Below are positions 1 to 17,310 of a stretch of 17,364 bases of DNA, one piece after another. Under the pieces are notes generated by a model. The model had not been told where the DNA came from and ran no database searches. It saw nothing but the letters and a program-made list of their open reading frames with translations. The DNA comes from Elusimicrobiota bacterium. GTDB taxonomy: Bacteria; CG03; SLGR01; PWQF01. How positions within the stretch are numbered: the stretch's first letter is position 1; each line of letters begins with the position of its first letter. The stretch spans positions 1 to 17,364 of the forward strand of contig PWOI01000113.1 of assembly GCA_003557485.1 (NCBI GenBank), read 5' to 3'. Both the position numbers and the translations under genes were made by a program.

Positions 1-1
1 A

Positions 2-1423: not shown

Positions 1424-2352
1424 TGAAGAAAATTTTCCGTATTATATCTGTATTTTCTTTTTTCTGCCTTTTTTGCGGTTCCGGTTATCTTTATGGCGAC
1501 GCCGGAGCTACGGGCTGGTTTATATTCCGCCGTCCCCAGTCAACTACCCCCAGGGCCCCTGTGGCTGTTGCTGCGGTACGGGGTGACCTTTCGGGTATTT
1601 TCTATAACCCTTCCGTTCTCGGGACTATGCCTGCCCGTGAGATATTCCTCCTTACGGAATCAGGTATGGGCGGAGAACTATTTGGAGGCCTGCTTTACGG
1701 TCAGCCGCTGCCTTTAGGACAAGGAGCCGGAATAGCTGCGGGCGTTATTTATTATGATGCCGGCAGGACTACTCTTTACTGGATTGAAGGCGGTGACCTG
1801 AAAGAAAAAACAGTTACCATACAGAGAGATACAATGGGCATTATCTCTTACGGCCAGGCTGTAAGCGAAGAGATACTTGTTGGCGGTTCGTTTAAAGTCG
1901 CCTCAAGCAATATAGCCGAAGTTGAAGGTGCCACGGCAGTCGGAGTTGACCTTGGAGTGATGTACTTTGCGCCGTTTTACGAGGGGCTTTCATTTTCGCT
2001 TGCGGTCCAGAATATAGGCACTGCGTCAGAATTTATTGACAAGGCTGAGAAGCTTCCCGGCAGCGTCTGGCTCGGGACTTCTTATTTCACCGACCTTACC
2101 GACAGGACGTATATGAGCGCGGGCATAGACGGCGCCTATATACTTGAAGAACAGAGAATAATTCCCGGTCTTGGTATAGTTTACGGCTACGAACAGTTCT
2201 CTGCGAATTTCGGATACAGGTTCAATACGGACGAGTCAAAACTGCATATCGGTTTCGGGGCATTTGTTGGCAGTTTTGATTTAGGGTATTCATTTTCTCC
2301 TGCAACATACCTCTCCCATGTACACCGGCTGACAGTCGGGTATATGTTTTAA
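1420..2352 (+). CDS. PorV/PorQ-like outer-membrane beta-barrel protein
   Basis: The 310-residue product starts with a signal peptide: MMKK, then a hydrophobic run to about residue 25, with probable cleavage near LYG-DAG. An early motif, AAVRGDLSGIFYNPSVLGTM, resembles the A.G..GA...NPA segment of the PorV/PorQ (UPF0164, FadL-like) family. The rest is a series of amphipathic beta-strands ending in HRLTVGYMF, with the C-terminal phenylalanine typical of outer-membrane barrels. In the type IX secretion system PorV shuttles or tethers cargo carrying a sorting domain. Here the upstream partner carries such a tail and overlaps by 4 bp, which fits a cargo/barrel pair. Either ATG 1420 or ATG 1423 could be used; no strong Shine-Dalgarno is seen, consistent with translational coupling. 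No other secretion-system component is in view, so the type IX-like role is inferred. Confidence 0.75.
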   Translation: MMKKIFRIISVFSFFCLFCGSGYLYGDAGATGWFIFRRPQSTTPRAPVAVAAVRGDLSGIFYNPSVLGTMPAREIFLLTESGMGGELFGGLLYGQPLPLGQGAGIAAGVIYYDAGRTTLYWIEGGDLKEKTVTIQRDTMGIISYGQAVSEEILVGGSFKVASSNIAEVEGATAVGVDLGVMYFAPFYEGLSFSLAVQNIGTASEFIDKAEKLPGSVWLGTSYFTDLTDRTYMSAGIDGAYILEEQRIIPGLGIVYGYEQFSANFGYRFNTDESKLHIGFGAFVGSFDLGYSFSPATYLSHVHRLTVGYMF

Positions 2353-2384
2353 GCTTCAAATCCCGGCGATACCTTAAAGGATAC

Positions 2385-2412
2385 TTGATTTATTTTCAAA
2401 TATTGTTAGTAT
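2385..2412 (+). promoter_or_regulatory. Candidate sigma70-type promoter for the hyd operon
   Basis: TTGATT (2385-2390) and TAGTAT (2407-2412) are separated by 16 bases and would place a transcription start near 2419-2420, immediately before the Rex-type palindrome. Both boxes match the consensus only partly, and the 104-base intergenic region is AT-rich, so chance matches are likely. A perfect palindrome, GCTTTAAAGC (2414-2423), lies between the -10 box and the operator. Confidence 0.35.
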
Positions 2413-2425
2413 TGCTTTAAAGCTA

Positions 2426-2445
2426 TTTGTGAAATTTTTCACAAA
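2426..2445. promoter_or_regulatory. Rex-type redox operator upstream of hydG
   Basis: A perfect inverted repeat with 9-base arms, TTTGTGAAA-TT-TTTCACAAA, contains TTGTGAA-ATTT-TTCACAA. That matches the known bacterial Rex binding consensus (TTGTGAAnnnnTTCACAA). Rex is a repressor released from DNA by NADH and commonly controls fermentation and hydrogenase genes. The site lies 11 bases before the hydG start and just downstream of the candidate -10 box, so bound protein would block transcription of the whole hydG-to-hydA operon. The rex gene itself is not in the window. Confidence 0.75.
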
Positions 2446-2456
2446 CGCGGTCAGTT

Positions 2457-3863
2457 ATGAAAACAAAGACAAATAAAATCATAAATGAAGACTACCTCTT
2501 GTCACTTTTAAGCAGCGCCGGTAAGCCGTCTGATTCTGAAGTGCAGAAGGTTCTGGACAGGGCTATGCAGCTTAAGGGCCTTTCCCCGAAGGAAGCCGCC
2601 GTTTTGCTTAACATAGCCGATACCGAATCCCTTGACAGGCTTTACAGTGTTGCAAACGCAATTAAAAACCTTATCTACGGGAGCCGTCTGGTTCTTTTTG
2701 CCCCGCTATATATATCAAACTACTGTTCAAACAGCTGCCTTTACTGCGGATACCGCAGGGAGAATACCTCTATAGAGAGAAAATGCCTGACTATTGACCA
2801 AATCAGGAGTGAAGTTGAAATAATTCTCAGCTGGGGCCACAAACGGATCCTGATGCTTATGGGAGAGCATCCCGGCAGGTGCTCTTTTGATTATTTCCTT
2901 GAGTCAATCCGGGCTGCGTACAGTGTAAAGGACAGCAGGGGAAACTCAATCAGGCGCATAAATGTGGAGGTGCCTCCTCTGAACGATGAGGAGCTTTCCC
3001 GGCTTTCCCGCGCCGGGATAGGAACATATACAGTATTTCAGGAAACATATCACCGCCAAACATACGAAAAAATGCACCCGGCCGGAGAGAAGAGAGATTA
3101 CGACAGGCGCCTGGAAACAATGAGCCGAGCGCTTGAAAACGGGATTAACGATGTCGGCATAGGCGCTCTTTTCGGGCTTTACGACTGGCGGTTTGAAGTT
3201 CTGGCCCTGCTCGAGCACGCCGGGTATCTTGACAGGATTCACGGTGTTGGTCCCCATACCATTTCCGTTCCGAGAATAGAGCCTGCTTCAGGCGCTCCTC
3301 TTTCGGAGAATATACCTTATCCGGTAAGCGATGAGGATTTTAAAAAAATAGTCGCGGTCCTGAGGTGCTCAGTTCCATATACCGGCATAATTCTCTCTAC
3401 GAGGGAACCGGCGGTCCTGAGGCAGGAAGTTTTTGAACTTGGGGTATCCCAGATAAGCGCCGGTTCCCGCACAGCGCCCGGAGGATACGGGAATAGCCGG
3501 CCGGACGAGGCAGGTGCGGGCCAGTTTTCGCTTAACGATACGCGCAGTGTCGGAGAGGTTATTAAATCAGTAATAAAGCAGGGATATGTTCCTTCTTTCT
3601 GCACCGGATGCTACCGCCTCGGAAGGGTGGGAGAAGATTTTATGGACCTGGCAAAACCCGGGCAGATAAAACTTCACTGCCTGCCTAACGCCCTATCAAC
3701 GCTGAAAGAATACCTTGTTGATTATGCGGACGGGGAGACGAAGCGGCTGGGAGAAAAACTGATTAATGAAAGCCTGGACAAAATACCGTCCCCCGGAAGA
3801 AGAAAAAAAACAGAAGAGTATCTTAAAGAAATAGAAAATGGAAAAAGAGACCTTTATTTCTAA
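2457..3863 (+). CDS. hydG: [FeFe] hydrogenase H-cluster radical SAM maturase HydG
   Basis: HydG cleaves tyrosine to p-cresol plus CO and CN-, which become the Fe ligands of the H-cluster. The 468-residue protein has the radical SAM motif C90-x3-C94-x2-C97 (YCSNSCLYCGY). It also has the HydG-specific C-terminal motif C382-x2-C385-x22-C408 (CTGC ... LHC), which holds the auxiliary iron-sulfur cluster. Length and N-terminus fit the family, and the GLSPKEAAVLLN segment is typical of HydG/ThiH relatives. The ATG start has no convincing Shine-Dalgarno and sits 11 bases after the Rex-type palindrome. The end overlaps hydE by 26 bp. It is the first gene of the maturation and hydrogenase operon. Both cluster motifs distinguish it from ThiH. 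Confidence 0.97.
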   Translation: MKTKTNKIINEDYLLSLLSSAGKPSDSEVQKVLDRAMQLKGLSPKEAAVLLNIADTESLDRLYSVANAIKNLIYGSRLVLFAPLYISNYCSNSCLYCGYRRENTSIERKCLTIDQIRSEVEIILSWGHKRILMLMGEHPGRCSFDYFLESIRAAYSVKDSRGNSIRRINVEVPPLNDEELSRLSRAGIGTYTVFQETYHRQTYEKMHPAGEKRDYDRRLETMSRALENGINDVGIGALFGLYDWRFEVLALLEHAGYLDRIHGVGPHTISVPRIEPASGAPLSENIPYPVSDEDFKKIVAVLRCSVPYTGIILSTREPAVLRQEVFELGVSQISAGSRTAPGGYGNSRPDEAGAGQFSLNDTRSVGEVIKSVIKQGYVPSFCTGCYRLGRVGEDFMDLAKPGQIKLHCLPNALSTLKEYLVDYADGETKRLGEKLINESLDKIPSPGRRKKTEEYLKEIENGKRDLYF

Positions 3864-4908
3864 AAAGTCCATTGAAGAAATGCTGAGCCTGAGCGGGCCC
3901 GGGGCCCGGGACCTGAGGGAAAAAGCAGCCCGCGTCAGAGATGAATGCGTAGGACGTAAAGTTTATTTCCGCGGCCTTATTGAGTTTTCCAATATATGTT
4001 CCAACGACTGTTTTTACTGCGGTATCAGAAGTTCTAACAGTAAAACGGAGCGCTATACTATGACGCCGGGTGAGATAATGGAATGCGTGCGGTTCTGCGA
4101 TGAGTCGGGATACGGATCTGTAGTGCTTCAGTCTGGAGAGAGAAGAGACGGGGAGTTTACCGGTTTTGTTACAGAAACTGTCAGCGCGATAAAGAGTGAA
4201 TTTCCCGAAATGAGGATAACTCTTTCCGTAGGCGAACAGGACAGAGAGACTTTAAGAAGGTTTTACCAGGCCGGCGCGGAGAGGTATCTTCTCAGGATAG
4301 AGACTTCAAACAGCAGCCATTACAGAAAGCTGCATCCGGAAAAAATGGTTTTTGAAAACCGCAGGAATTGCCTTGAAACATTAAGGAGAATCGGTTTTCA
4401 GGTAGGAACAGGAGTTATGATAGCAAGTCCTTACCAGGAGATAGCAGACCTTGCCGGAGACCTGCTTTTTATGAAGGCCATAGATATAGATATGGTGGGT
4501 ATGGGGCCTTATCTTCCGCAGAAGGATAATACTCTTAAAGATTGGAGCTATGACCCGCAAGAGGCGCTCAGGCTGAGCCTTAATATGATAGCGGTCCTCA
4601 GGATTATGATGCCGGATATAAATATTGCTGCAACAAGCGCCCTGCAGGTGCTGGATGAAAACGGCAGGGAAAAAGCTATTGCTTCCGGCGCTAATATCGT
4701 GATGCCCAATGTGACTCCGCTGAAATACCGCCAGGCATATTCCCTGTATGATAACAGGCCCTGCGTACTTGATACGCCATATGGCTGCTATAACTGCATA
4801 ACACAGAGGATAGAGGGAACGGGACTTCTTCCTGCAAAGGGAGAAAAAGGTGACTCTCTTCGATTTTTAAAACGCAAAGGGAAAAGAATAGATGTCTGTA
4901 ATTGTTGA
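3838..4908 (+). CDS. hydE: [FeFe] hydrogenase H-cluster radical SAM maturase HydE
   Basis: HydE works in assembly of the [2Fe] subcluster, acting on the cysteine-bound Fe(CO)2CN product of HydG. The 356-residue protein contains the radical SAM motif C54-x3-C58-x2-C61 (ICSNDCFYCGIR). It also carries C309-x7-C317-x2-C320, the spacing of the accessory second cluster described for Thermotoga maritima HydE. GMGPYLPQKDNTL and the ATSALQ segment fit the HydE barrel, and BioB-like alternatives lack this context. The start lies within the end of hydG (26 bp overlap), and the stop overlaps the start of hydF (17 bp), indicating translational coupling. A short Cys-rich tail (DVCNC) is an extra feature of unknown meaning. 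Confidence 0.97.
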   Translation: MEKETFISKKSIEEMLSLSGPGARDLREKAARVRDECVGRKVYFRGLIEFSNICSNDCFYCGIRSSNSKTERYTMTPGEIMECVRFCDESGYGSVVLQSGERRDGEFTGFVTETVSAIKSEFPEMRITLSVGEQDRETLRRFYQAGAERYLLRIETSNSSHYRKLHPEKMVFENRRNCLETLRRIGFQVGTGVMIASPYQEIADLAGDLLFMKAIDIDMVGMGPYLPQKDNTLKDWSYDPQEALRLSLNMIAVLRIMMPDINIAATSALQVLDENGREKAIASGANIVMPNVTPLKYRQAYSLYDNRPCVLDTPYGCYNCITQRIEGTGLLPAKGEKGDSLRFLKRKGKRIDVCNC

Positions 4909-6193
4909 AAGAGATAATATAGGGGTTTTCGGAAAAATGAACTCCGGGAAGAGTTCGTTTGTTAATCTTATTTCGCAGCAGGAAGCTTCAATAGTAGATT
5001 CTACTCCCGGAACTACTGCCGACACCAAACAGGTCAACAAGGAAATTCACGGAACGGGGCCTGTAAGTTTTTACGATACAGCCGGTATTGACGAGGCAAA
5101 TGAACTCGGACTTAAGAAAAAGAAAAAAGTAATTGACCTGCTCAAGGAATGCGACACGGCCCTTCTTCTTATTGACCCTTCAGCGGAAAATATGCAGCCC
5201 GAAAAAGAGTTTCTTGAGCTTGCCCTGCTTCACGGCAAGCCCGTACTTGCCGTCTACAATATTTTTAACCAGAAAGATACTGCCCGCATTACGGTTATAG
5301 AAAAAGAAGTCCCGCTTTTGAAAAATTGCCCTGGCATAAGGATAAGAGCTGTTGACAGCGCCTGCCGGCCTGCAGCGCTGGAATTTATTGCCCGGCATCT
5401 TAAAAGCGGAAAAGACAAATTTCCGCTGCTTCCTTTTATAAAGAAAGATGAGTTCTATGTTCTTGTAATTCCTATGGATAGCCAGTCGCCTCACGGCCGC
5501 TACCTGAGGCCCCAGGCAATGACGGAAGAATATATAACAAGGAACTGGGCATACCCGGTCTCTTTCAGGCTTAATATGAATGCGCCGGATATGGATGAAG
5601 AAAGGAAACGGTTTTACGAATTTATAGGATCTCTTTCAAAAAAGCCGCTGGCAGCTATTACTGATTCCCAGGCCGCAGGGCTTATGAACCGGTGGCTGGA
5701 TGAGGATATAATGGTCACAACTTTTTCAATCGTTATGATTAATTATTTCAGCCGCGGCCGTATTGCAGACTTTCTGGAAGGGATAAAAACCGTGAAAGAA
5801 CTTGTCCCCGGAGACAGTGTTCTTATTGCCGAGGCCTGCAACCATTCCCGTATAGGGGAGGATATAGGCACCGTTCAGATACCGGAGTATCTCAAGGAGC
5901 ATTTTCCCGGCGTTTGTATTGAACACAGTTTCGGGAGAGAGTTCAGCGATCCCGGGCAGTTGCAGGATTACAGGCTTGTCATTCACTGCGGGGCATGTAT
6001 GATAACCCGGCAGAAACTCCAGGCAAGGATAAAAATGCTTGAGGAGTCAGGTGTACCTTATACTAACTACGGGATATTTTTATCATTTATACAGGACCCG
6101 GCAGCTTTAAAGAGGGTTATGCTCCCATGGAATGTGAATTTTGAGTATGAGGAATTAAAAGAAAATCAAAGGAGAAAAAAAGTTGAATCCTAA
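4892..6193 (+). CDS. hydF: [FeFe] hydrogenase H-cluster maturation GTPase HydF
   Basis: HydF is the GTPase scaffold that carries the diiron precursor and delivers it to HydA. The N-terminal Era/Ras-like GTPase domain shows G1 GKMNSGKS (14-21), TPGTT (38-42) and G3 DTAG (62-65). The usual NKxD guanine motif is altered to NIFNQKD (123-129). The C-terminal cluster domain has C316-N-H318 and, 46 residues later, H365-C366-G-A-C369, matching the family pattern CxHx(44-53)HCxxC that binds a [4Fe-4S] cluster. The 433-residue length is normal. The gene overlaps hydE by 17 bp and the following nuoE-like gene by 11 bp. Confidence 0.96.
   Translation: MSVIVERDNIGVFGKMNSGKSSFVNLISQQEASIVDSTPGTTADTKQVNKEIHGTGPVSFYDTAGIDEANELGLKKKKKVIDLLKECDTALLLIDPSAENMQPEKEFLELALLHGKPVLAVYNIFNQKDTARITVIEKEVPLLKNCPGIRIRAVDSACRPAALEFIARHLKSGKDKFPLLPFIKKDEFYVLVIPMDSQSPHGRYLRPQAMTEEYITRNWAYPVSFRLNMNAPDMDEERKRFYEFIGSLSKKPLAAITDSQAAGLMNRWLDEDIMVTTFSIVMINYFSRGRIADFLEGIKTVKELVPGDSVLIAEACNHSRIGEDIGTVQIPEYLKEHFPGVCIEHSFGREFSDPGQLQDYRLVIHCGACMITRQKLQARIKMLEESGVPYTNYGIFLSFIQDPAALKRVMLPWNVNFEYEELKENQRRKKVES
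6168..6174 (+). promoter_or_regulatory. Shine-Dalgarno supporting a TTG start
   Basis: AAAGGAG ends 8 bases before the TTG at 6183, inside the 3' end of hydF. No ATG lies at a usable distance, and the family-typical N-terminal helix begins right after this TTG, so TTG is the chosen start. Confidence 0.7.
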
Positions 6194-6671
6194 AACAGCA
6201 AGTAAAATAGACGGTATTATAAAAAAGTATTCACAAGGGCACGGCAGGCTTCTGGGAATGCTGGAGGAAATACAGAGGGAAAACCCCCATAATTATCTTC
6301 CGGAAGATACACTGGCATACGTTGCGCGAAAAACCTGCATACCGTATGCAAAAATATACGGAGTAGTAACTTTTTATTCTTTTTTCAACCTTATTCCCCA
6401 GGGTGACCACTGCATATCGATATGCCGGGGAACGGCCTGCCATACAAAAGGCTCAAAGAAAATACTTGATTATTTAAGGAATAATTATGATTTTGAAGGG
6501 GAAGACACAAATGACGCAAAACTTTTCCTGACAACCAGAGACAGAAAAATTACTTTAAGGTCGGTAGCCTGTTTCGGGCAGTGCGCTCTGGCTCCCGTTG
6601 TAGAGGTTGACGGGGAAATTTACGGAAATATGACAGTTGACGGGCTTAAGAAAATCATAGAGAAATTTTAG
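6183..6671 (+). CDS. hydC: NuoE/HydC-like [2Fe-2S] thioredoxin-fold subunit of the hydrogenase
   Basis: This 162-residue protein is the small electron-transfer subunit (24-kDa complex I subunit family). It holds a [2Fe-2S] cluster and pairs with the NuoF-like subunit. Ligands are C81-x4-C86 (CRGTAC) and C130-x3-C134 (CFGQC), exactly the family spacing. The N-terminal helical segment (LLGMLEEIQRENPHNYLPEDTLAYVA) is typical of NuoE, HndA and HydC. It starts with TTG behind a good ribosome site and overlaps the hydF stop by 11 bp. It precedes the NuoF-like fusion by 13 bp. In trimeric HydABC enzymes this subunit is HydC. Its location between maturation genes and hydB/hydA makes the same role very likely here. 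Confidence 0.93.
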   Translation: MNPKTASKIDGIIKKYSQGHGRLLGMLEEIQRENPHNYLPEDTLAYVARKTCIPYAKIYGVVTFYSFFNLIPQGDHCISICRGTACHTKGSKKILDYLRNNYDFEGEDTNDAKLFLTTRDRKITLRSVACFGQCALAPVVEVDGEIYGNMTVDGLKKIIEKF

Positions 6672-6684
6672 GAAGAGAGAAAAA

Positions 6685-9600
6685 ATGAAAATAAAAACAC
6701 TGAAAAATCTTTCAAGCGTGAAAGAAAAAGGGCTTGCAAAAGTCAGGCCTGACACTGCAAGAATAGCAGTAGGAATGAGTACCTGCGGGCTCGGTAACGA
6801 CGCGGAGAATATTTACCGTGAATTCAAAAAAGAGCTGAAAAAACAGGATGTGGAAGCGATCCTTACTGAAACAGGCTGTTTTGGATACTGCGCAGCGGAG
6901 CCTATGGTAAATATTTATGTTCCGGGCAAACCCCTTGCCGTAATGAGCCGCCTTGGTGTTGAAGACGTAAAAGAAGCAGTCAGAAATATTAAGAAAGGCA
7001 ATCCCTCAAACAGCAAAACCATATGCAGGATAGACAGCTGGAACCATCACACTTCGGTTATTGATTACGGTGACGCCCTGGAAGGAATACCTTTATGGAA
7101 CGAACTTCCTTATTACAGGGGCCAGAAAAAAGATGTTCTCAGAAACTGCGGGCTAATAAATCCTAATGATATAGAGGAGTATATCGGTGTGGGAGGATAC
7201 CGTCCTCTCTATGATGTGCTTAACGGTATGTCTGAAGACGAGGCGCTTGATGAAATAAAAGTATCAGGATTAAGGGGCCGAGGAGGTGCGGGGTTCCCTG
7301 TTTGGCTTAAATGGCAGATGCTTAAGCAGAATAAAGAGACGCCCAAGTATATAATATGCAACGCCGATGAAGGAGACCCCGGGGCATATATGAACCGCAA
7401 TGAACTTGAAGGCGACCCCCATATGATAATAGAAGGAATGATTATAGCCGGGTATATTACAGGGGCAAATCACGGAGTAATATACTGCCGCGCGGAGTAC
7501 CCCATCGCGGTGAGACGTCTTGAGAATGCTATAAAGCAGTGCCGCAGTATGGGAATCCTGGGCAAGTCCGTTATGGGGACCAAGTTTTCTTTTGATATAC
7601 AGATAGTAGAGGGTGCAGGGGCTTTTGTCTGCGGAGAGGAAACAGCTCTCATCTCATCAATTCAGGGAGATCCGGGATGGCCGATGCCCCGTCCACCGTA
7701 TCCTTCGGAAAAGGGTCTTTACGGGAAACCGACCTGCATTAATAATGTTGAAACATTTTCCAATGTTCCGATGATAATCGCGCGCGGCGGCGAAGATTTT
7801 GCCAGAACGGGAACCGAAAAAAGTACGGGAACCAAGGTCTTTTCACTGGTTGGAAAGATAAAAAATACCGGGCTTGTGGAGCTCCCTCTGGGGACGCCTT
7901 TGAGAAAGCTTGTTTATGATATTGGCGGCGGAGCGGAAAAAGGGAAAAAGATCAAGGCCGTACAGACCGGGGGGCCATCCGGAGGATGTATTCCCTCGTC
8001 GCAATTTGACTGCAGTATTGATTACGAGGCCCTTGCCGGCCTTGGAGCAATAATGGGTTCGGGAGGAGTTGTCGTAATGGACGAAGACAACTGTATGGTT
8101 GACGTCGCCCATTATTTTACCGAATTTACAACTTCGGAATCCTGCGGAAAATGCGTTCCGTGCCGGGAAGGGATAAATCATACTCTCCATATGCTTTCCC
8201 GCATAAAGAACGGTGATGGTGAGATGGATCAGTTGCCCGGGCTTGAAAAGCTTGCAGACGTAATAAGAGACAGCTCTCTATGCGGACTTGGCCAGACCGG
8301 CCCCAATCCTGTTGTTACAACGATGAAGTATTTCCGTGATGAATACGAAGAACACATAAAAGAAAAATACTGCCGGGGCGGTGTCTGTGAGACTATGTAC
8401 TCTTCTCCATGCGAAAACAGCTGTCCGCTTCATATGAATGTTGCAGGATATCTGCAGCTCTGCGCAGAAGGGCGCATTGAGGACGCTTTTGACCTGATAA
8501 TAAGGGAAAACCCCCTGCCTTCAACGCTGGGAAGAATATGCCATTTCCACTGCAGGATGAGATGCCGTAGGGAAGATATTGACTCTCCGGTTGCCCAGGG
8601 AGAAGTTCACCGCTATATTGCCGACCGCATTTATGATGAAAATAAACTGGATGAGATGGCGGCCCGGCTGAAAAAAGACAGAAAACCTTCAACAGGTAAA
8701 AAAATTGCCGTAATCGGGGGCGGCCCGGCAGGATTGACAGCCGCTTTTTACCTGGTGATGCTGGGCCATAAGGTAACAGTTTATGAGGAAAAAAGCGAAG
8801 CCGGCGGCATACTCAGATGGGGTATTCCCCGCTACAGGCTTCCTAAAGACATCCTCAAAAGAGAAATAGATTTTATAAAGAAAATAGGAGTTGACATAAA
8901 AACAGGAAAGAGAATCTCTCCTGCGGAATTTAAAAAAATCAGTAAAGGCAGCGATGCTGTTATTGTGACTACCGGAGCATACAGAAGCCGGGATCTTAAA
9001 GTAACAGGGATGAGCCTTAAGGGTATAGTTACCGGCTCTGATTTCCTCGAGAAAGCGGCTACTGAGAGCAATTTTAAACCCGGGAAAAAAGTAGTAGTTA
9101 TAGGGGGAGGAAACGTTGCAATTGACGCTGCAAGGACTGCTGTCAGGTACGGAGCCGATGTAACTATAGTCTACAGGAGGGGAGAAGAAGAGCTTCCTGC
9201 AATCAGGCAGGAGATAGAAGACGCTATTGAAGAAAACGTTAAATTTAAGTTCTGGAGAAATCCCGATAAATTTAACGGGGAGAAGGGAAAACTTAAGTCT
9301 CTGCGCCTCTCTGTTACAAACCCGGGGGAATACGATATTTCCGGCCGCCGCCGCCCGGTTCCTGCAGAAGGGACAGAAACGATAAAATGCGACTGCGCTG
9401 TTATTGCAATAGGCGAGGATGTTGACAGCTCTTTTCTTAAAGATTGCGGGGTTTCTGTTACAGGCCGCGGCCGTGCTGCAGCCGATCCTTTCACTATGGA
9501 AGTTTCAAACGGAATTTATGCTGCCGGTGATGTTGTTTCCGGTCCCTCTACCGCTGCCGAAGCTATGGAGCAGGGAAAGAAAGCCGCCCGGCGTATTGAC

Positions 9601-9819
9601 CGTGAGCTGATGGATGAAGACAGGATTGAAAGCATAAAAAAAGAGATTTCATACAGTATGGAAGTGCCCGCAAAGCCGGACGGGCGAGGGCAGTCTAAAA
9701 CAAAGGCCATAAGCCTGGCAAAAAGAAAGAGCGGTTTTGAAGAAGTGCGTAAAGGATTTACTGCTGCTCAGGCACTGACAGAGGCGGCCAGGTGCCTCCG
9801 CTGCGACGTTAAGGATTAA
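6685..9819 (+). CDS. hydB: NuoF/HydB-like subunit fused to a GltD/NfnB-type FAD-NAD(P) oxidoreductase
   Basis: Domains of this 1044-residue protein in order: (1) residues ~25-105, thioredoxin-like [2Fe-2S] domain with three cysteines (C34, C65, C69). (2) ~135-555, the NuoF core, with FMN/NADH motifs GLRGRGGAGFP (196-205) and ADEGDPGAYMNR (227-238), GAGAFVCGEETAL (310-322) and a [4Fe-4S] site C487-x2-C490-x2-C493...C533. (3) ~560-635, a cysteine-rich GltD-type segment with C563, C568, C576, C580, C619, C623 and C627, and the family signature ENPLPSTLGRIC. (4) ~672-970, two Rossmann folds: FAD motif IGGGPAGLTAA (677-687), second motif IGGGNVAIDAARTA (806-819), YRRGEEELPA (830-839) suggesting NADP(H), and AAGDVVSGPSTAAEAM. 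(5) a tail EAARCLRC (1033-1040). HydB of trimeric hydrogenases instead ends in a ferredoxin-like domain. Role: NAD(H) entry, probably plus NADP(H), to the hydrogenase complex; bifurcation is inferred. A good ribosome site (GGAAGAGAG) precedes the ATG. Confidence 0.93.
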   Translation: MKIKTLKNLSSVKEKGLAKVRPDTARIAVGMSTCGLGNDAENIYREFKKELKKQDVEAILTETGCFGYCAAEPMVNIYVPGKPLAVMSRLGVEDVKEAVRNIKKGNPSNSKTICRIDSWNHHTSVIDYGDALEGIPLWNELPYYRGQKKDVLRNCGLINPNDIEEYIGVGGYRPLYDVLNGMSEDEALDEIKVSGLRGRGGAGFPVWLKWQMLKQNKETPKYIICNADEGDPGAYMNRNELEGDPHMIIEGMIIAGYITGANHGVIYCRAEYPIAVRRLENAIKQCRSMGILGKSVMGTKFSFDIQIVEGAGAFVCGEETALISSIQGDPGWPMPRPPYPSEKGLYGKPTCINNVETFSNVPMIIARGGEDFARTGTEKSTGTKVFSLVGKIKNTGLVELPLGTPLRKLVYDIGGGAEKGKKIKAVQTGGPSGGCIPSSQFDCSIDYEALAGLGAIMGSGGVVVMDEDNCMVDVAHYFTEFTTSESCGKCVPCREGINHTLHMLSRIKNGDGEMDQLPGLEKLADVIRDSSLCGLGQTGPNPVVTTMKYFRDEYEEHIKEKYCRGGVCETMYSSPCENSCPLHMNVAGYLQLCAEGRIEDAFDLIIRENPLPSTLGRICHFHCRMRCRREDIDSPVAQGEVHRYIADRIYDENKLDEMAARLKKDRKPSTGKKIAVIGGGPAGLTAAFYLVMLGHKVTVYEEKSEAGGILRWGIPRYRLPKDILKREIDFIKKIGVDIKTGKRISPAEFKKISKGSDAVIVTTGAYRSRDLKVTGMSLKGIVTGSDFLEKAATESNFKPGKKVVVIGGGNVAIDAARTAVRYGADVTIVYRRGEEELPAIRQEIEDAIEENVKFKFWRNPDKFNGEKGKLKSLRLSVTNPGEYDISGRRRPVPAEGTETIKCDCAVIAIGEDVDSSFLKDCGVSVTGRGRAAADPFTMEVSNGIYAAGDVVSGPSTAAEAMEQGKKAARRIDRELMDEDRIESIKKEISYSMEVPAKPDGRGQSKTKAISLAKRKSGFEEVRKGFTAAQALTEAARCLRCDVKD

Positions 9820-9834
9820 GGAAGGAAATTATAA

Positions 9835-11610
9835 ATGAATAAGCAGGTAAGAATAAAAATAAACGGTTCTGATTATCTTATGTATGACGAGATTACGGTG
9901 CTTAATGCGTGCCGTAACGCCGGTATAAAAATACCGACTTTATGTTATCTGGAAGGGGTAAGCCAGAGGGCTTCATGCGGGCTCTGCGTTGTTGAGATTA
10001 AAGGAGCTAAATCCCTTATGAGAGCCTGTGTTACCAACATCAGGGAAGGCATAGAAATATTTACCAATACAAAAAGGGTCCGGCAGGCAAGAAAAACAAA
10101 CCTTGAACTGCTTCTTGCAAACCATCCCCGAAACTGCCTGCAGTGCAATAAAAATATGAAGTGCGAACTGCAGAGTATGGCCGATGAACTTGATGTCAGG
10201 GAGTGCAATTATCCCAATATAAGAAAAAAGAAAGTTCCGGTAGATAATTCTTCCCACTCGCTCTTCAGGGACCACGAGAAATGTATCCTCTGCGCCAGAT
10301 GCGTTGAGGTCTGCAGTCAGGTCCAGACAGTTGATGCTATAGAAATCGCCGGCAGGGGTATGGACGCCCATGTTACTACTTTTTTTGACAGGGGACTGGG
10401 GAATTCAGAATGTGTTAACTGCGGCCAGTGTCTGCTTGTATGCCCTACGGGCGCGCTTATGGCAAGGAGCGAAATTGACAGCGTATGGAAGGAAATAGAC
10501 GACCCGGATAAATTCGTCATTATACAGACAGCTCCCGCCATCCGCGCCGCAATCGGAGAAGAATTCGGGTTTCCCCCTGGAACAGGGACTACCGTCCGGC
10601 TCGCAGCCGCTTTAAGGAAGATGAATTTTGACCGCGTATTTGATACCCAGTTTACTGCGGACCTTACAATAGTGGAAGAGGGAAATGAACTTATTGAGAG
10701 AATAAAGATGGGAGGGACCCTTCCTATGATAACCTCCTGTTCACCCGGATGGATAAGGTTTGCCGAGGAATTTTATCCCGGAGTGCTGGATCATATATCA
10801 AGCTGTAAGTCTCCTCAGCAGATGTTCGGGGCCATTGCAAAAACCTATTACGCCCGGAAACTCAATATGGACCCGCGTAAAATATCGGTGATTTCGGTTA
10901 TGCCTTGTACTGCAAAAAAGTTTGAGGCCAGGCGCAGCGAAATGACATCGGCATATGAATACTGGGAAAAAGAGCTTAAGCTTAAAGAAAAAGACAGATT
11001 CCCCGATGTGGACTATGTGCTTACTACCAGGGAAATGGCAGATATGATAAAAGAGGCCGGCGTGGATTATGCCAATATTTCCGGGGAGAGGTTTGACAGC
11101 CCGCTGGGCATATCAACCGGCGCTGCAACAATATTCGGAACAACCGGTGGCGTCATGGAAGCTGCAGTGCGTACGGCCTATTTTGAACTGACCGGTTCAG
11201 AGCTTCCCAAACTGGACCTGGAAGAGGTTCGGGGGCTTAAGGGCGTAAAACAGGCATCTCTGGATATAAACGGAAAAAAGATCAATGTTGCTGTTTCACA
11301 CGGACTGAGTAACGCCCGTGAAATTATTAGAGAGATAAAAAAAGGCAAAAGCCCTTACCATTCTATAGAGATAATGACCTGTCCCGGAGGATGTATTGGC
11401 GGCGGGGGACAGCCTATTCCGGCAGATTACGAGATACTTAAAAAGAGAATGGAAGCGCTTTACCGGGAAGACCGTGAAATGCAGGTCCGCCAGTCACACG
11501 ATAATCCTGCAGTTAAAGAATTATATGAAAGCTTTCTGGATAAGCCTCTGGGTAAACTCTCTCACAGCCTGCTTCACACTAAATACACGAAAAGGGGTAT
11601 TTACAGTTAA
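9835..11610 (+). CDS. hydA: Catalytic subunit of [FeFe] hydrogenase (HydA, NuoG-like N-terminus)
   Basis: This subunit catalyses reversible H2 oxidation/proton reduction in the cytoplasm. Its 591 residues carry, in order: a plant-type [2Fe-2S] domain (C37, C48, C51, C65); a His-ligated [4Fe-4S] site H97-x3-C101-x2-C104-x5-C110; two [4Fe-4S] clusters (C150/153/156/160 and C193/196/199/203); and the H-cluster domain. H-cluster motifs are L1 TSCSPGW (300-306), L2 MPCTAKKFE (356-364) and L3 EIMTCPGGCIGGGGQP (512-527). L1 differs from the prototypical TSCCPxW, with Ser303 where the second cysteine normally sits. Proton-path residues appear conserved (C302, E282, E285, S322). The C-terminus LGKLSHSLLHTKYTKR is typical. 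No signal peptide was seen. It follows hydB by 15 bp with a strong ribosome site (AAGGAAGG) and is the last gene of the operon. Confidence 0.97.
   Translation: MNKQVRIKINGSDYLMYDEITVLNACRNAGIKIPTLCYLEGVSQRASCGLCVVEIKGAKSLMRACVTNIREGIEIFTNTKRVRQARKTNLELLLANHPRNCLQCNKNMKCELQSMADELDVRECNYPNIRKKKVPVDNSSHSLFRDHEKCILCARCVEVCSQVQTVDAIEIAGRGMDAHVTTFFDRGLGNSECVNCGQCLLVCPTGALMARSEIDSVWKEIDDPDKFVIIQTAPAIRAAIGEEFGFPPGTGTTVRLAAALRKMNFDRVFDTQFTADLTIVEEGNELIERIKMGGTLPMITSCSPGWIRFAEEFYPGVLDHISSCKSPQQMFGAIAKTYYARKLNMDPRKISVISVMPCTAKKFEARRSEMTSAYEYWEKELKLKEKDRFPDVDYVLTTREMADMIKEAGVDYANISGERFDSPLGISTGAATIFGTTGGVMEAAVRTAYFELTGSELPKLDLEEVRGLKGVKQASLDINGKKINVAVSHGLSNAREIIREIKKGKSPYHSIEIMTCPGGCIGGGGQPIPADYEILKKRMEALYREDREMQVRQSHDNPAVKELYESFLDKPLGKLSHSLLHTKYTKRGIYS
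11607..11610. other. Interlocked stop codons of hydA and gdhA (TTAA)
   Basis: The palindrome TTAA provides TAA for hydA (11608-11610, plus) and TAA for gdhA (11607-11609, minus). The convergent genes therefore overlap by 4 bp and leave no room for an intergenic terminator. Any termination must occur inside the opposite gene. Confidence 0.9.
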
Positions 11611-12965
11611 ACTACTCCCTGAGCTGCCATAGCCCTGGCAACTTTGGAGAATCCTGCTATATTTGCGCCTGCTTCGTAGTCACCCGGTTTTCCGTATTCT
11701 TCGGCAGCCTGGAGAGTTACACTGTGGATGGCCTTCATTATCTGGTGAAGCCTGTCGTTAACAGTTTCCCTGGACCAGTTCTGCATCTGCCTGTTCTGTG
11801 ACATTTCCAGGCCTGAAACGCTGACTCCCCCTGCGTTTGCCGCTTTACCGGGCCCGAACATGACCCCGTTTTCCTTGAGGTGTTTAATTGCATCGGGCAT
11901 AGTGGGCATATTTGCTCCTTCGGCTACGCAGCAGCACCCGTTCTTTACGAGAGCTTCGGCATGCTGGAGGTTTATCTCGTTCTGCGTGGCGCAGGGAAGG
12001 GCAATATCTATTTTAATGTCTTTGTCCTTTATGGCGTCCCATATGTTTTTTCCAGGAAGGCAGGTGGCCGGATATTTGTTTGCATATTCGCTGATCCTGG
12101 CGCGCGCCTGATTTTTTATTTCTTTTATGTGAGTTAGTTTTTCGGCGTCAATTCCTTCCTCGTCTACAATTGTGGATCCCGAATCGCAGAGGGATATTAC
12201 TTTAGCGCCCAGCTGAATGGCTTTCTCAGCGGCAAACTGGGCCACGTTCCCCGCACCGCTTATAGCTACAACCTTGTCCTGGAGAGGCATTCCTTTTGTC
12301 TTGAGCATTTCCTTTACAAAGTAGACAAGTCCGTAACCGGTAGCTTCGGGGCGGATCAGGCTTCCTCCCCATTCAAGGCTTTTGCCTGTAAGCACTCCGG
12401 TATATTCATTTACTATACGCTTATAGTATCCGTACATATATCCGATTTCCCGCGCGCCGACTCCTATATCACCGGCAGGGACATCCACATTTGCTCCTAT
12501 ATGCCTGAAGAGTTCCCTCATAAATGAATGGCAGAAGTTCATAACATCCATATCGGTTTTACCTTTGGGGTCAAAATCCGATCCTCCCTTGCCTCCTCCC
12601 ATAGGAAGGGTAGTAAGAGCGTTTTTAAAAATCTGTTCAAATCCCAAAAACTTGACTATTCCCAAGGTCATAGAAGGATGAAACCTGAGCCCTCCTTTGT
12701 AGGGGCCTATTGCATTATTGAACTGCACACGGTATCCCCTGTTAACACGGACCTCCCCTGTATGGTCAACCCAGGGAACCCGGAACATAACCACCCTGTC
12801 CGGTTCAACGATCCTTTCTACAATCCTGTTCTTAATAAACTCGGGATGTTTTTCAAGAACGGGAATTATGGAAAAGAGGACCTCTTTCACAGCCTGCTGA
12901 AACTCAGCTTCTTCTTTGTTTTTCCTGGTAAGCGTTTCAATAATTTCGTTTATGTAGTCTTTCAT
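11607..12965 (-). CDS. gdhA: Glutamate dehydrogenase, probably NADP-dependent (GdhA)
   Basis: It catalyses glutamate = 2-oxoglutarate + NH4+ with NAD(P)H. The 452-residue length fits the hexameric small-subunit class I enzymes typical of bacteria. Visible motifs are substrate-binding KGGLRFHPS (90-98), the catalytic lysine region PMGGGKGGSDFDPKG (121-135, K126), GDIGVG (166-171, Asp166) and a Rossmann motif SGAGNVAQF (236-244) with CDSGSTI (260-266). GPGKAANAGGVSVSGLEMSQN is the class I signature. Coenzyme preference cannot be proved from sequence by eye; NADPH is favoured by similarity to E. coli GdhA. A ribosome site, GGGAGAA, stands about 6 bases before the ATG. The gene converges on hydA and is divergent from the gene at 13116. 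Confidence 0.95.
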   Translation of the reverse strand: MKDYINEIIETLTRKNKEEAEFQQAVKEVLFSIIPVLEKHPEFIKNRIVERIVEPDRVVMFRVPWVDHTGEVRVNRGYRVQFNNAIGPYKGGLRFHPSMTLGIVKFLGFEQIFKNALTTLPMGGGKGGSDFDPKGKTDMDVMNFCHSFMRELFRHIGANVDVPAGDIGVGAREIGYMYGYYKRIVNEYTGVLTGKSLEWGGSLIRPEATGYGLVYFVKEMLKTKGMPLQDKVVAISGAGNVAQFAAEKAIQLGAKVISLCDSGSTIVDEEGIDAEKLTHIKEIKNQARARISEYANKYPATCLPGKNIWDAIKDKDIKIDIALPCATQNEINLQHAEALVKNGCCCVAEGANMPTMPDAIKHLKENGVMFGPGKAANAGGVSVSGLEMSQNRQMQNWSRETVNDRLHQIMKAIHSVTLQAAEEYGKPGDYEAGANIAGFSKVARAMAAQGVV

Positions 12966-13115
12966 TTTAGTTCTCCCGTATAAATTTTATTTCAAGTAAA
13001 ATGATAATAATTTGTTAAAAAAATTCAAGGGAAATGTTTCTTGCGCTCTGCGGGCAACCCGTAAAGTTGAAAAATTACAAGATGCAGGTTAGCATTATAT
13101 TGGAGCAGTAATGAT
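12966..13115. promoter_or_regulatory. Divergent intergenic region between gdhA and the 13116 gene
   Basis: These 150 AT-rich bases must hold the promoters of both divergent genes. I could not assign a convincing -35/-10 pair on either strand. A short stem CGGG-CAA-CCCG (13051-13061) has no T-run on either side. GGAG at 13102-13105 is the probable ribosome site of the 13116 gene; an in-frame-looking ATG at 13111 is followed by a stop two codons later. Confidence 0.4.
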
Positions 13116-13703
13116 ATGAAAAACAGTATGACCAGATGCAGCATATGCGGATTAGACAGGGTTCCTGAAGAAATGGTTTATACAAGGTTCCGTCGCCCGT
13201 CATGCCCGGTATGCTTTCATAATGAAAGGCAGAGTTCAGGCGTTGTTATAAGGTTTTCCGGAGAAAAGCCTGTTGATTTCAGGGTTTTTTCCCCTTATTT
13301 TAATTTTTGGGAAACCAATATAGCTAATTTCCCCGATCCGGTTGCCGGGATATTAAGTTTTCCTGAATCAGACATTAATTCAGATATTGAATTTCCTGAT
13401 AGTGACAGGGTAACATTCGAATGGAACTGGATCCTGCAAAAAGGATATTCTTCGGCTTCCAGGGGAAGTATCCATGCTGTTTCCGAATGTGCAGTAATAG
13501 ATATAGCGCGTAGTTCAGAATACCTGGCTAAGAAACTGCAAACTCCTTTTGAAATATTTCTTATATTCCGCTATTTTGGATCCTTCAAGCGTATGGTATA
13601 TGAGATAGCTGCCGGAAAGGATTTTATAGGGCCCGCCGGTAAATGGTGCGAAAAAAACGAAACTCTTATAGTAAAAGAACTTTCCTGTCTTCTGAAAGGT
13701 TAA
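13116..13703 (+). CDS. Hypothetical protein with N-terminal zinc-ribbon-like motif
   Basis: I do not recognise the family of this 195-residue protein. Its N-terminus carries two CxxC pairs, C8-x2-C11 and C30-x2-C33, separated by 18 residues and surrounded by basic residues (YTRFRRPSCPVC), which looks like a small zinc ribbon. The remaining ~160 residues contain aromatic-rich strands (FSPYFNFWETNIANFPDP; VTFEWNWILQKGYSS) and a helical C-terminus. There is no signal peptide or membrane segment. Codon use resembles neighbouring genes, and the frame is supported by GGAG 10 bases before the ATG. It lies only 7 bp before the transporter gene, so the two are probably co-transcribed. Confidence 0.7.
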   Translation: MKNSMTRCSICGLDRVPEEMVYTRFRRPSCPVCFHNERQSSGVVIRFSGEKPVDFRVFSPYFNFWETNIANFPDPVAGILSFPESDINSDIEFPDSDRVTFEWNWILQKGYSSASRGSIHAVSECAVIDIARSSEYLAKKLQTPFEIFLIFRYFGSFKRMVYEIAAGKDFIGPAGKWCEKNETLIVKELSCLLKG

Positions 13704-13710
13704 ATTTTAA

Positions 13711-14559
13711 TTGCTAGTAAATATTTTTCTACCCCTTGCAGCCGGTCTCTTGTTTTCAAAGGTTCTGGGCTTCCGAGCAGGATTTAAAAATCTTCTTATA
13801 GATGCAATACTTTATCTCATTATACCTGTTTTTGTTTTCCAGGTGATGTGGGAGGCCAGTTTCAGAGGAGGAGAAGTTGTTTTTTTTTCACTGGCAGCGG
13901 CTGTTGTCTGTGCAGTAGGAGCCTTGGTATCTTTTATACTCTCAAAAAGGATGAAAGAAACACGGTTCAGAGACCTGGCTTTGCCGGCGGTTTTTATGAA
14001 TTCCGGAAACCTTGGTATTCCGGCTGCCGGATATTTGTTTGGAGCTGCCGGAATTACCTATGCGGTAATTTTTAACGCTGCAATTACTTTTTTTATTTTC
14101 AGTGCAGGAGTTATGATAGCTTCCGGAAAAGGAAATTTCAGGGAGGTTTTCAGAATACCTGTTATTTATGCGCTTTTTGCAGGGCTTGCAATGAACAGGT
14201 GGGGACCCCCGTTCCCTTCGGAAATCGCCGTTTTTGAATTCTTTAAGGACGCGGCAATATTTCTAATGCTTGCTATGGTAGGATGGAGGTTGGGTTATCT
14301 TAAGGCTTTTTTTACGGAAAAAGTCCTGTGGGCAAGCGCGGCCAGGTTTCTGTCAGGCGCCCTTGGGATATTTATTTTTATACATGTCTTTTCTGTTCCA
14401 CAGGAGTACGCGGCTCCTCTGATTCTTCTCTCTCTTATGCCGTCAGCTATAAATTCGTTTATTCTTGCGGAAAAGTATGATTCCTGTCCCGGGCTCTCTT
14501 CCGGTGCGGTGGCTTTAACAAGCGTTCTTTTTCTTGTAGTTTTTTATATCTTGTTCTGA
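13711..14559 (+). CDS. AEC (auxin efflux carrier) family transporter
   Basis: The 282-residue protein is hydrophobic throughout, with about 8-10 predicted membrane helices. The central segment LPAVFMNSGNLGIPAAGYLFG (91-111) matches the conserved N.GN.G.P signature of AEC/membrane-transport proteins. The end LMPSAINSFILAEKYD...GAVALTSVLFLV matches the second half-repeat. AEC members export or import organic anions such as malate, malonate or auxin-like acids; the substrate cannot be told here. The start is TTG at 13711, preceded by AAAGGT about 11 bases upstream, since the first internal ATG would remove the first helix. It is slightly shorter than the usual ~300-310 residues. It overlaps the convergent MaoC gene by 16 bp. 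Confidence 0.88.
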   Translation: MLVNIFLPLAAGLLFSKVLGFRAGFKNLLIDAILYLIIPVFVFQVMWEASFRGGEVVFFSLAAAVVCAVGALVSFILSKRMKETRFRDLALPAVFMNSGNLGIPAAGYLFGAAGITYAVIFNAAITFFIFSAGVMIASGKGNFREVFRIPVIYALFAGLAMNRWGPPFPSEIAVFEFFKDAAIFLMLAMVGWRLGYLKAFFTEKVLWASAARFLSGALGIFIFIHVFSVPQEYAAPLILLSLMPSAINSFILAEKYDSCPGLSSGAVALTSVLFLVVFYILF

Positions 14560-14981
14560 GATTCAGATCTGGGTATGACAACGGCTTTGCCGCGCACGAT
14601 GACTTTTCCGTCCTGGTTGGAAACCTTGTAGCTGAATTCGCACATCTTTATTTTTTCCTGCTTTTTTTGCAGCTTGATTTCTGCAGTTACTGTATCTCCT
14701 ATAAATGCCGGCCGGCTGAATTTGGCGTCCATCTGGCGCGCAACAGTGCCGAGTCCCGGGAACTTTGTACCAAGAACCCCCGAAACTATTCCGGTAAGCA
14801 GAACGCCGTGAGCAATTCTCCTTCCGAACTGGCTTGAAGAAGCGTATTCTTCATCCATATGGATAGGATTAAAGTCGCCTGTAGCTTCGGCAAAAGCCTT
14901 TATGTGTTTGTCCTGGATGGTTACCGTATGGGTTTCAATATCGCCTATTGTGAGTTCTTCAAATGTTTTGCTTTTGTGCAT
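14544..14981 (-). CDS. MaoC-type (R)-specific enoyl-CoA hydratase
   Basis: The 145-residue single hot-dog-fold protein carries the hydratase-2 motif ATGDFNPIHMDEEYA...GRRIAHGVL. Asp36 and His41 are the catalytic pair that adds water to trans-2-enoyl-CoA to give the (R)-3-hydroxyacyl-CoA (PhaJ/MaoC family). Size and motif spacing are normal. The substrate chain length and pathway are unknown, and no fatty-acid or PHA gene is nearby. A ribosome site, AAGGAT, precedes the ATG. The gene lies 29 bp downstream of htpX on the same strand, so it probably shares the htpX transcript. It overlaps the convergent AEC gene by 16 bp. Confidence 0.92.
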   Translation of the reverse strand: MHKSKTFEELTIGDIETHTVTIQDKHIKAFAEATGDFNPIHMDEEYASSSQFGRRIAHGVLLTGIVSGVLGTKFPGLGTVARQMDAKFSRPAFIGDTVTAEIKLQKKQEKIKMCEFSYKVSNQDGKVIVRGKAVVIPRSESQNKI

Positions 14982-15010
14982 TTTAATAATCCTTTCTATG
15001 TTTGATTAAA

Positions 15011-15838
15011 TCAGATTCCGATTTTCATCAGACGCTCTATTCTGTCTTCGATTGGAGGGTGAGTGCTGAAGAGGCTCTTAAGGCCGCCGCCCTTAAAAGG
15101 CTGTACTATAAAAAGGTGGGAGGTTGCCTGGTTGACCTGCATACGTCCGGAATAAGACTGCAGTTTCCTGAGAGCTTCTGCAAGTGAAACAGGGTTTCCC
15201 GATATGCCGGCTGCGGAACGGTCCGCAGTGTACTCGCGAGAACGGGAAATAGCCATCTGTATAAACATAGCAGCTATGGGCATTATGACGGCAGCTGCAA
15301 TAAGGGCCAGTATATTTCCTCTTCCTCTTCTCCTTCCTCCCAGAAAAGCCGACCATCTTGCCATACTTGCCAGCACCATTACAGCGCCTGCGACAGTAGC
15401 GGCTACAGTCTGGATAAGGGTGTCCCTGTTTTTAATGTGGCTGAGTTCGTGCGCGATAACCCCTTTAAGTTCCTGAGTATTGAGAATTCTAAGAAGGCCC
15501 TCTGTAACTGCCACTGCTCCCCTGGAAGGGCTTCTTCCAGTTGCAAAAGCGTTAGGATCCTGTGCCGGAAGAATGTAAATTTCCGGTACAGGTATAGAAG
15601 CGGCTGCAGCCAGTTCTTCAACAGCCGAGTAGAGGGCCGGATATTGTGTCCTTTCTGCCGGTTTTGCCTTATAGATTGCCAGAACTATTTTATCGGAATA
15701 CCAGTAGCTTATGAAATTTATGCCGAAAGCAAAAATCAAAGCAATAATCATACCCTGCCTGCCTCCGAATATATTACCCATCAGCAGCAGTAGTCCGGTA
15801 AGGACTGTCAGCAGAAAGAAAGTTTTGATATGGTTCAT
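15011..15838 (-). CDS. htpX: Membrane zinc metalloprotease HtpX
   Basis: HtpX is an inner-membrane M48 protease that degrades misfolded membrane proteins. The 275-residue form starting MNHIKTFFLL is preferred: its ATG is preceded by GGAGG at 15849-15853, whereas a 15-residue longer frame would need an unsupported TTG. Two N-terminal membrane helices (about 5-22 and 26-47) and two central ones (about 141-160 and 175-197) flank the zinc site H130-E131-L-S-H134, with the third ligand E202 in SREYTADR. The C-terminal signature FSTHPPIEDRIERL is diagnostic. It is first in a probable htpX-maoC transcript. Confidence 0.95.
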   Translation of the reverse strand: MNHIKTFFLLTVLTGLLLLMGNIFGGRQGMIIALIFAFGINFISYWYSDKIVLAIYKAKPAERTQYPALYSAVEELAAAASIPVPEIYILPAQDPNAFATGRSPSRGAVAVTEGLLRILNTQELKGVIAHELSHIKNRDTLIQTVAATVAGAVMVLASMARWSAFLGGRRRGRGNILALIAAAVIMPIAAMFIQMAISRSREYTADRSAAGISGNPVSLAEALRKLQSYSGRMQVNQATSHLFIVQPFKGGGLKSLFSTHPPIEDRIERLMKIGI

Positions 15839-15848
15839 TTTATAATTT

Positions 15849-15853
15849 CCTCC
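15849..15853 (-). promoter_or_regulatory. Ribosome binding site fixing the htpX start
   Basis: GGAGG on the minus strand lies 10 bases before the ATG at 15838 and inside the longer alternative frame. It therefore argues for the shorter, 275-residue HtpX. Confidence 0.75.
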
Positions 15854-15872
15854 ATGTTTTATTTCTTCTAAG

Positions 15873-15902
15873 CATACAAGCAAAAATTCACTGCAATGTC
15901 AA
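15873..15902 (-). promoter_or_regulatory. Candidate htpX promoter
   Basis: On the minus strand a perfect -35 box TTGACA (15897-15902) is followed after 18 bases by TGTATG (15873-15878), a weak -10. The predicted transcript start is about 30 bases before the htpX ATG. The left end of the insertion element begins 9 bases beyond the -35 box. Confidence 0.4.
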
Positions 15903-15910
15903 TATTGAGC

Positions 15911-15966
15911 TGTTATTACTAAGTCAAAATGTTAATTTGTTACTAAGCAAACTGGTTAATTTTTTA
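15911..15966. repeat. Left terminal repeats of the IS (two tandem units)
   Basis: Unit 1 (15911-15938) has the core ACTAAGTCAAAATGTTAATT. Unit 2 (15939-15966) has the core ACTAAGCAAACTGGTTAATT. The units are about 28 bases each in direct orientation. Unit 1 matches the inner unit of the right end, inverted, at 24 of 26 positions. The stop codon of the transposase gene lies in unit 2. Confidence 0.8.
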
Positions 15967-17262: not shown

Positions 17263-17276
17263 TTGAAAGCCTCCTT

Positions 17277-17294
17277 TTGCAACAATTATTGCAA
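17277..17294. promoter_or_regulatory. Inverted repeat in the transposase leader
   Basis: TTGCAA-CAATTA-TTGCAA is an 18-base inverted repeat directly upstream of the transposase ribosome site. It could be an operator or a small leader hairpin limiting transposase expression; the position is suggestive but function is unproven. Confidence 0.35.
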
Positions 17295-17310
17295 AAAAAT
17301 AGCTTTCTAA

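Follow-up and report, generated by a model that had tools for sequence, protein, structure and literature searches.

An [FeFe]-hydrogenase operon of Elusimicrobiota in which an NfnB/GltD-type module takes the place of the HydB ferredoxin domain

The stretch of DNA analysed here (the window) comprises 17,364 nucleotides, positions 1 to 17,364 of the forward strand of contig PWOI01000113.1 (assembly GCA_003557485.1), from an Elusimicrobiota metagenome-assembled genome of ~2.07 Mb whose nearest named relative is CSSed10_282R1, a sediment isolate. Its + strand encodes an apparently complete [FeFe]-hydrogenase gene set in the order hydG, hydE, hydF, hydC, hydB::gltD and hydA, with overlaps or gaps of no more than 15 bases between the genes. 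The fifth gene (6685-9819), the subject of this report, encodes a protein of 1044 residues that joins a HydB/NuoF subunit to an NfnB/GltD-type flavoprotein module. The other members of the set are the H-cluster maturases HydG (2457-3863; TIGR03955, 530.7 bits against a cut-off of 312) and HydE (3838-4908; TIGR03956, 369 bits against 255), the maturation GTPase HydF (4892-6193; HydF_tetramer, 2e-36; TIGR03918, 295 bits, under the cut-off of 326), the NuoE/HoxE-like [2Fe-2S] subunit HydC (6183-6671; PF01257, 1e-40) and the catalytic subunit HydA (9835-11610), which carries the motifs TSCSPGW, MPCTAKKFE and EIMTCPGGC and passes the NCBIfam model NF040763 for [FeFe] hydrogenase group A6 (848 bits against 765).

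The reading frame of the fusion is uninterrupted over its 1044 codons and contains Pfam domains in the order Complex1_51K (residues 191-362, 3e-44), SLBB (386-434), NADH_4Fe-4S (473-557, 1e-31), Fer4_20 (568-652, 2e-18) and Pyr_redox_2 (673-964, 8e-38), so that a first, sequence-only reading of the window was right to describe a complete NuoF core followed in one frame by a complete GltD/NfnB module. Residues 1-557 form the HydB/NuoF subunit, with the flavin mononucleotide (FMN)/nicotinamide adenine dinucleotide (NADH) domain encoded at 7255-7770 and the NuoF-type [4Fe-4S] domain at 8101-8355; this is the core expected of the bifurcating (Bfu) family. Residues 568-1044 form the NfnB/GltD module, which consists of an Fe-S domain (8386-8640), a flavin adenine dinucleotide (FAD) fold and a second dinucleotide fold, the two folds making up a double Rossmann module for FAD and NADP(H), the phosphorylated nucleotide (8701-9576), and a C-terminal tail with the motif RCLRC (9715-9816). 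The motif YRRGEEELPA, which the same reading had placed in the second dinucleotide fold, lies at residues 830-839.

An AlphaFold2 model of the whole chain (mean predicted local distance difference test score 87.9, predicted template modelling score 0.84) matches HydB chains over residues 2-570 and StnC-type chains over residues 570-1043, with structural Z scores of 38-48 against HydB-type subunits. Among solved structures, the HydB half is closest to A. mobile HydABCSL, whose HydB core is 60% identical in the structural alignment, A. woodii HydABC and T. sibiricus NfnABC, and the nearest matches to the GltD half are the GltD domains of NfnABC/Stn, together with NfnB (39% identity to the NfnB-type chain 5jca_L over 404 residues). 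The earlier proposal that the operon encodes, together with hydA and hydC, a hybrid of HydABC and an NfnB-type enzyme is borne out.

The position at which the two halves meet is informative about what has changed in HydB. In unfused HydBs of the host genome and its phylum, a C-x4-C hinge motif is followed by a 2[4Fe-4S] ferredoxin-like domain, whereas in the fusion the hinge motif (H557, C563, C568) leads straight into the CxxxCP motif (C576, C580) of the GltD Fe-S domain, across a junction of residues 557-580 (8353-8424). A Pfam domain search found no bacterial 4Fe-4S dicluster or other Fer4-type ferredoxin domain in the 1044 residues. Because the ferredoxin domain is absent and the GltD module is attached at the same point, directly after the hinge cysteines, the module is a replacement of the C-terminal 2[4Fe-4S] domain of HydB, not an addition to it. 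In addition, when the model is aligned to the structures 9n5u_B and 9bp5_B, the matched range reaches beyond the HydB core to residues 629-639, and from these range ends the GltD Fe-S domain appears to overlap the C-terminal Fe-S domain of those chains. The sequence-only reading had suggested an added NADP(H) or ferredoxin port; the module is most naturally read as an NADP(H) site, but the word 'added' was wrong.

The domain that has been replaced is the one that handles ferredoxin in characterized relatives. The B3 and B4 clusters sit in the C-terminal domain of HydB (PMC9499530), StnB reduces ferredoxin at its C-terminus (PMC10482914), and the C-terminal 2[4Fe-4S] domain with B3/B4 has been called part of an invariant BfuBC core (PMC9304861). 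The fusion, which has no Fer4-type domain to hold B3 and B4, does not fit the published claim that the same clusters occur in all bifurcating BfuBC cores (PMC9304861).

Residue conservation was checked in 40 fusions from named genomes, and every flavin and Fe-S ligand position that was checked is invariant in all 40. These include the NuoF [4Fe-4S] ligands (C487, C490, C493, C533), C470, H557, C563 and C568, the three Cys and one His of a candidate zinc hinge whose role is suggested by homology (PMC9499530), and, in the GltD part, C580, C619, C623 and H642 at the proximal cluster and C576, C627, C1037 and C1040 at the distal cluster, which the C-terminal tail completes. By homology, this part has all the residues needed to bind two [4Fe-4S] clusters, as in an NfnB-type FAD/NADP(H) module, although the RCxxC tail is C-terminal, as in Stn, rather than N-terminal, as in NfnB. 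R718 and the R831-R832 pair of the YRR motif in the second Rossmann fold are also invariant. Locus L010 (genome G003) has CGAETAL in place of the conserved CGEETAL of the NuoF part, in a region that may bear on discrimination between NADH and NADPH.

H642 (codon 8608-8610) aligns with Glu102 of NfnB and Lys170 of StnC. It is His in all 40 fusions of the main type but Lys in a second fusion type and in nearly all unfused GltD proteins inspected, so this residue marks the main fusion type. The same position bears on a proposal of the sequence-only reading, that the FAD of the GltD module is a second site of flavin-based bifurcation, as it is in NfnB. The invariance of R718, the equivalent of NfnB Arg201, would be in keeping with such a site, but this Arg is also kept in StnC, the nearest studied GltD-bearing relative, whose FAD is reported to be non-bifurcating (PMC10482914). 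A second bifurcation site is very improbable given this property of StnC and the His that stands where NfnB has a Glu ligand; in addition, a scan of ten window proteins found none of the family of NfnA, the partner that takes up the other electron.

The HydB half retains the residues reported to be diagnostic of bifurcating beta subunits, namely A/E, M, F and GGPSG (Losey et al. 2020, PMC7311640), as A234 and M236 in the FMN/NADH domain, F386, and GGPSG at 429-433. With a bifurcating-type core kept, the ferredoxin port gone and an NADP(H)-handling module there, a swap of ports is the simplest reading. We therefore hold, with moderate confidence, that the operon encodes a HydABC-type [FeFe]-hydrogenase in which the ferredoxin port of HydB has been exchanged for an NfnB/GltD-type FAD and NADP(H) port, and that the enzyme couples H2 to both NAD(H) and NADP(H). 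Electrons from H2 would enter at the H-cluster, travel along the clusters of HydA and arrive at the FMN/[4Fe-4S] site of HydB, the point of reaction with NAD(H). The other branch, which in an ordinary HydABC leads through B3/B4 to ferredoxin, would leave by way of the GltD module, first through its distal and then through its proximal [4Fe-4S] cluster, the latter with an unusual His at its fourth-ligand position, and on to FAD and NADP(H). Such an enzyme would interconvert H2 with NADH plus NADPH free of ferredoxin, most likely in the direction of H2 evolution in a fermenting host. Cofactor occupancy, NADP specificity, electron path, coupling and direction are all predictions of this scheme.

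The same features could also be read as those of a dual-nucleotide hydrogenase that does not bifurcate, in which the GltD module is a second diaphorase, H2 reduces NAD+ or NADP+ independently, and the complex could run as an uncoupled transhydrogenase as well. HydBs without a ferredoxin domain are non-bifurcating (PMC9304861, PMC7311640), and the homologous FAD of StnC is a plain point of electron entry (PMC10482914). However, the HydB core of the fusion retains both the bifurcating beta-subunit residues and those of the candidate hinge, and free equilibration of NADH with NADPH would waste the gradient between the two pools, so we regard this explanation as rather unlikely. Another alternative is a complex on which four substrates converge, namely H2, NAD(H), NADP(H) and ferredoxin, the last of which the GltD module would still accept at its distal [4Fe-4S] cluster, as NfnB does. 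In NfnAB, the site for ferredoxin and that for NADP(H) are each on NfnB (PMC10482914), both clusters of the module are conserved, and genes for RnfC and an Rnf/Nqr membrane subunit in the host genome make ferredoxin use by the host probable. On the other hand, the dedicated ferredoxin domain has been lost, and in the fused arrangement the distal cluster is probably turned towards HydC and the HydB hinge, away from solvent; we regard a four-substrate enzyme as improbable.

Several observations weigh against an exchange of ports with coupling preserved. The N-terminal [2Fe-2S] site of the HydB half has three of its four Cys (C34, C65, C69), with Gly at residue 30 in 36 of the 40 fusions; this site is degenerate in StnB too (PMC7483475). 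The placement of H642 as fourth ligand of the proximal cluster is a prediction from alignment, and in NfnB ferredoxin also enters at the distal cluster, so that its use may persist here. Finally, that the enzyme is truly coupled (bifurcating), as opposed to a plain dual-specificity hydrogenase, is a prediction from its genes and a modelled structure. In favour of the exchange, the partner enzymes of the fused subunit vary across genomes while the subunit itself stays the same.

Comparison with known systems places the enzyme between several of them. It shares with trimeric HydABC (A. woodii, T. kivui, T. maritima) a HydC, a HydB core with its FMN, NADH and [4Fe-4S] sites, the candidate hinge residues, and a HydA with an H-cluster, and differs in that a GltD/NfnB module of ~470 residues stands in for the C-terminal 2[4Fe-4S] ferredoxin domain. 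With the Stn/Nfn-Bfu enzymes (NfnABC; S. ovata, C. saccharolyticus, T. sibiricus) it has NuoE, NuoF and GltD parts in common, as well as the C-terminal position of the GltD module with its RCxxC tail. In those enzymes, however, GltD lies on a third, NuoG-like subunit, NuoF keeps its ferredoxin domain and there is no hydrogenase. The window enzyme differs from Stn on each of these points, as it carries GltD on NuoF, lacks the ferredoxin domain and has a hydrogenase as its third subunit. NfnAB has the same GltD/NfnB fold with two [4Fe-4S] clusters, FAD and an NADP(H) fold, but in the window this module is fused to HydB and carries His in place of Glu at the position of the proximal-cluster ligand. 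The [NiFe] HydABCSL of A. mobile has a similar HydB core, yet its HydB carries the ferredoxin domain (PMC9304861), where the [NiFe]-type fusions carry GltD.

Two further groups combine some of the same parts. Proteins of the family NF009410/PRK12771 ('NAD(P)-binding protein'), which are truncated relatives, join the C-terminal Fe-S domain of NuoF to GltD at about the same joint but have no FMN/NADH domain, and examples are ~640-650 residues long; L133, L134 and L135 are proteins of this length and arrangement. HydDB [FeFe] group A2 (glutamate synthase-linked) resembles the window in pairing a hydrogenase with a GltD protein, but its rule requires GltD without NuoF, encoded downstream of hydA (PMC5037454), while in the window NuoF and GltD form one protein encoded upstream of hydA.

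The sequence-only reading had named an assembly artefact as one of the conditions that would undo it, and had called for a survey of the fusion beside hydA in other genomes. Full-length homologues, 61-86% identical, turn up in four independently assembled genomes of the same order, and more distant ones, again at full length, in five genomes from other phyla within the first 61 genomes searched; because of these homologues, both an artefact and a chance joining are rejected. Within Elusimicrobiota, 5 of 16 genomes have the fusion, at full length and all in one order. Named genomes were then scanned with a junction pattern built from a five-sequence alignment, which gave 437 relatives of the 60-residue junction query, and the best 80 were read. 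At 78 of these 80 loci the protein matches the fused one, and 67 are intact end to end and 45-86% identical to the window protein, which likewise speaks against an artefact. The 80 loci come from Acidobacteriota (32), Chloroflexota (16), Omnitrophota (13), Pseudomonadota (6), Elusimicrobiota (3), Lokiarchaeota (3), Verrucomicrobiota (2), Kiritimatiellota (1) and Margulisiibacteriota (1), with 3 unlabelled; the fusion is thus widespread, in about eight phyla and with Lokiarchaeota included. A search of plasmids found no fusion, the best match being split into two pieces. At one locus (L040:1952-5098, genome G007) an in-frame TAA cuts the fusion gene into two frames, through either decay or assembly error.

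The fused subunit is no local oddity but is shared with [NiFe] hydrogenases and a formate dehydrogenase. An [FeFe] HydA adjoins it at 15 of the best 80 loci (Elusimicrobiota, Omnitrophota, Margulisiibacteriota), while 53 have a [NiFe] large subunit (HoxH/HydL-like) with HoxE/U/Y-like genes; the remainder have a GltB-like protein (3, Lokiarchaeota), a formate dehydrogenase (1), a [NiFe] small subunit only (1) or a neighbouring catalytic gene that was not identified (7, mostly at contig ends). For the one [NiFe] large subunit examined, the nearest solved relative is HydL of bifurcating HydABCSL, with the NAD-reducing soluble hydrogenase behind it. Partners of the second fusion type are a HydA (G039), a formate dehydrogenase-like gene (G053) and complex I-like genes (G036; recognized by eye). 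More tentatively, we propose that these enzymes carry out ferredoxin-independent bifurcation or confurcation across about eight phyla, coupling H2, or formate where the partner is a formate dehydrogenase, to NAD(H) and NADP(H) with [FeFe], [NiFe] or formate dehydrogenase partners. In Lokiarchaeota (L080, L081, L094), what comes after the fused NuoF-GltD is not a hydrogenase but a HoxU-like protein and a GltB-like protein of 526 residues, with glutamate dehydrogenase genes close by, and these loci possibly encode a glutamate synthase complex linked to NADH and NADPH.

Separate trees of the HydB and GltD halves point to a composite history. In the GltD tree, the modules of the main fusion type fall into a single clade (Shimodaira-Hasegawa-like approximate likelihood ratio test support 100). 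A single clade is rejected for the HydB halves of this type (approximately unbiased test, p 4.5e-92), and a single origin of all fusions is rejected by the HydB tree (p 2.8e-6) and, weakly, by the GltD tree (p 0.02), with these p values only a guide because the fusion groups were named partly after the trees had been seen. Since the GltD halves of the main type form one clade and the HydB halves do not, the module has been joined to different HydBs, at the same point, more than once. The HydBs of L019 and L020, from other Elusimicrobiota, branch within the fused HydB clade; L019 has an ordinary ferredoxin domain and L020 ends at a contig edge, and their placement may reflect either the ancestral state or a swap back.

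Elsewhere, the host genome encodes an ordinary HydB, its ferredoxin domain kept, with its own HydA, which marks the fused enzyme as a distinct one, and a separate Stn-like locus. With these genes and the Rnf-type genes present, the fused enzyme is no stand-in for a missing ferredoxin enzyme. The nearest relative of the window HydA is A. woodii HydA1, and the idea that TSCSPGW signifies loss of a proton-relay Cys was rejected, as HydA1 has the same motif. The third H-cluster motif is EIMTCPGGC in the window, EIMCCPGGC in some Omnitrophota, and MACPGGC in unfused HydAs and A. woodii; an altered form is common to most HydAs that accompany the fusion, with G007 and G039 as exceptions.

The remaining window genes provide context only. 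Convergent with hydA lies a gene for an NADP-type glutamate dehydrogenase (11607-12965, - strand; NF006929, 725 bits against a cut-off of 536), an arrangement also found in a sister genome (L037). Positions 2-2352 encode a beta-propeller protein resembling those sorted by the type IX secretion system and a PorV/PorQ-like protein, with scores under the cut-offs of the curated models for that system, and positions 15964-17262 (- strand) encode a helix-turn-helix-rich protein of 432 residues, possibly a transposase.

No description of a HydB/HoxF-GltD fusion was found in the open-access literature searched, a scope in which an account in a subscription journal could be missed, and the enzyme type is apparently undescribed. 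The HydDB rules for group A consider only the gene downstream of hydA and do not foresee NuoF and GltD in one protein (PMC5037454), and one study of Omnitrophota files its hydrogenases simply as A3 or 3d (PMC8542988). The fusion suggests that NADPH, not ferredoxin, may be made or used by a large set of hydrogenases now filed as A3 or 3d/bifurcating (among them those of soil Acidobacteriota, Chloroflexota and Omnitrophota), which would alter metabolic models and energy yields. With full coupling, an enzyme fed by both NADH and NADPH could raise H2 to ~145 Pa at published physiological potentials (PMC9304861), compared with computed values of ~3 Pa for NADH alone and ~15 kPa for NADH plus ferredoxin.

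If the proposed coupling is correct, hydrogen would be joined to both NADH and NADPH by a widespread enzyme type. The role of the mobile ferredoxin domain of HydB in bifurcation is still debated. An exchange of this domain with the rest of the core intact provides a natural, direct comparison by which that role can be approached.

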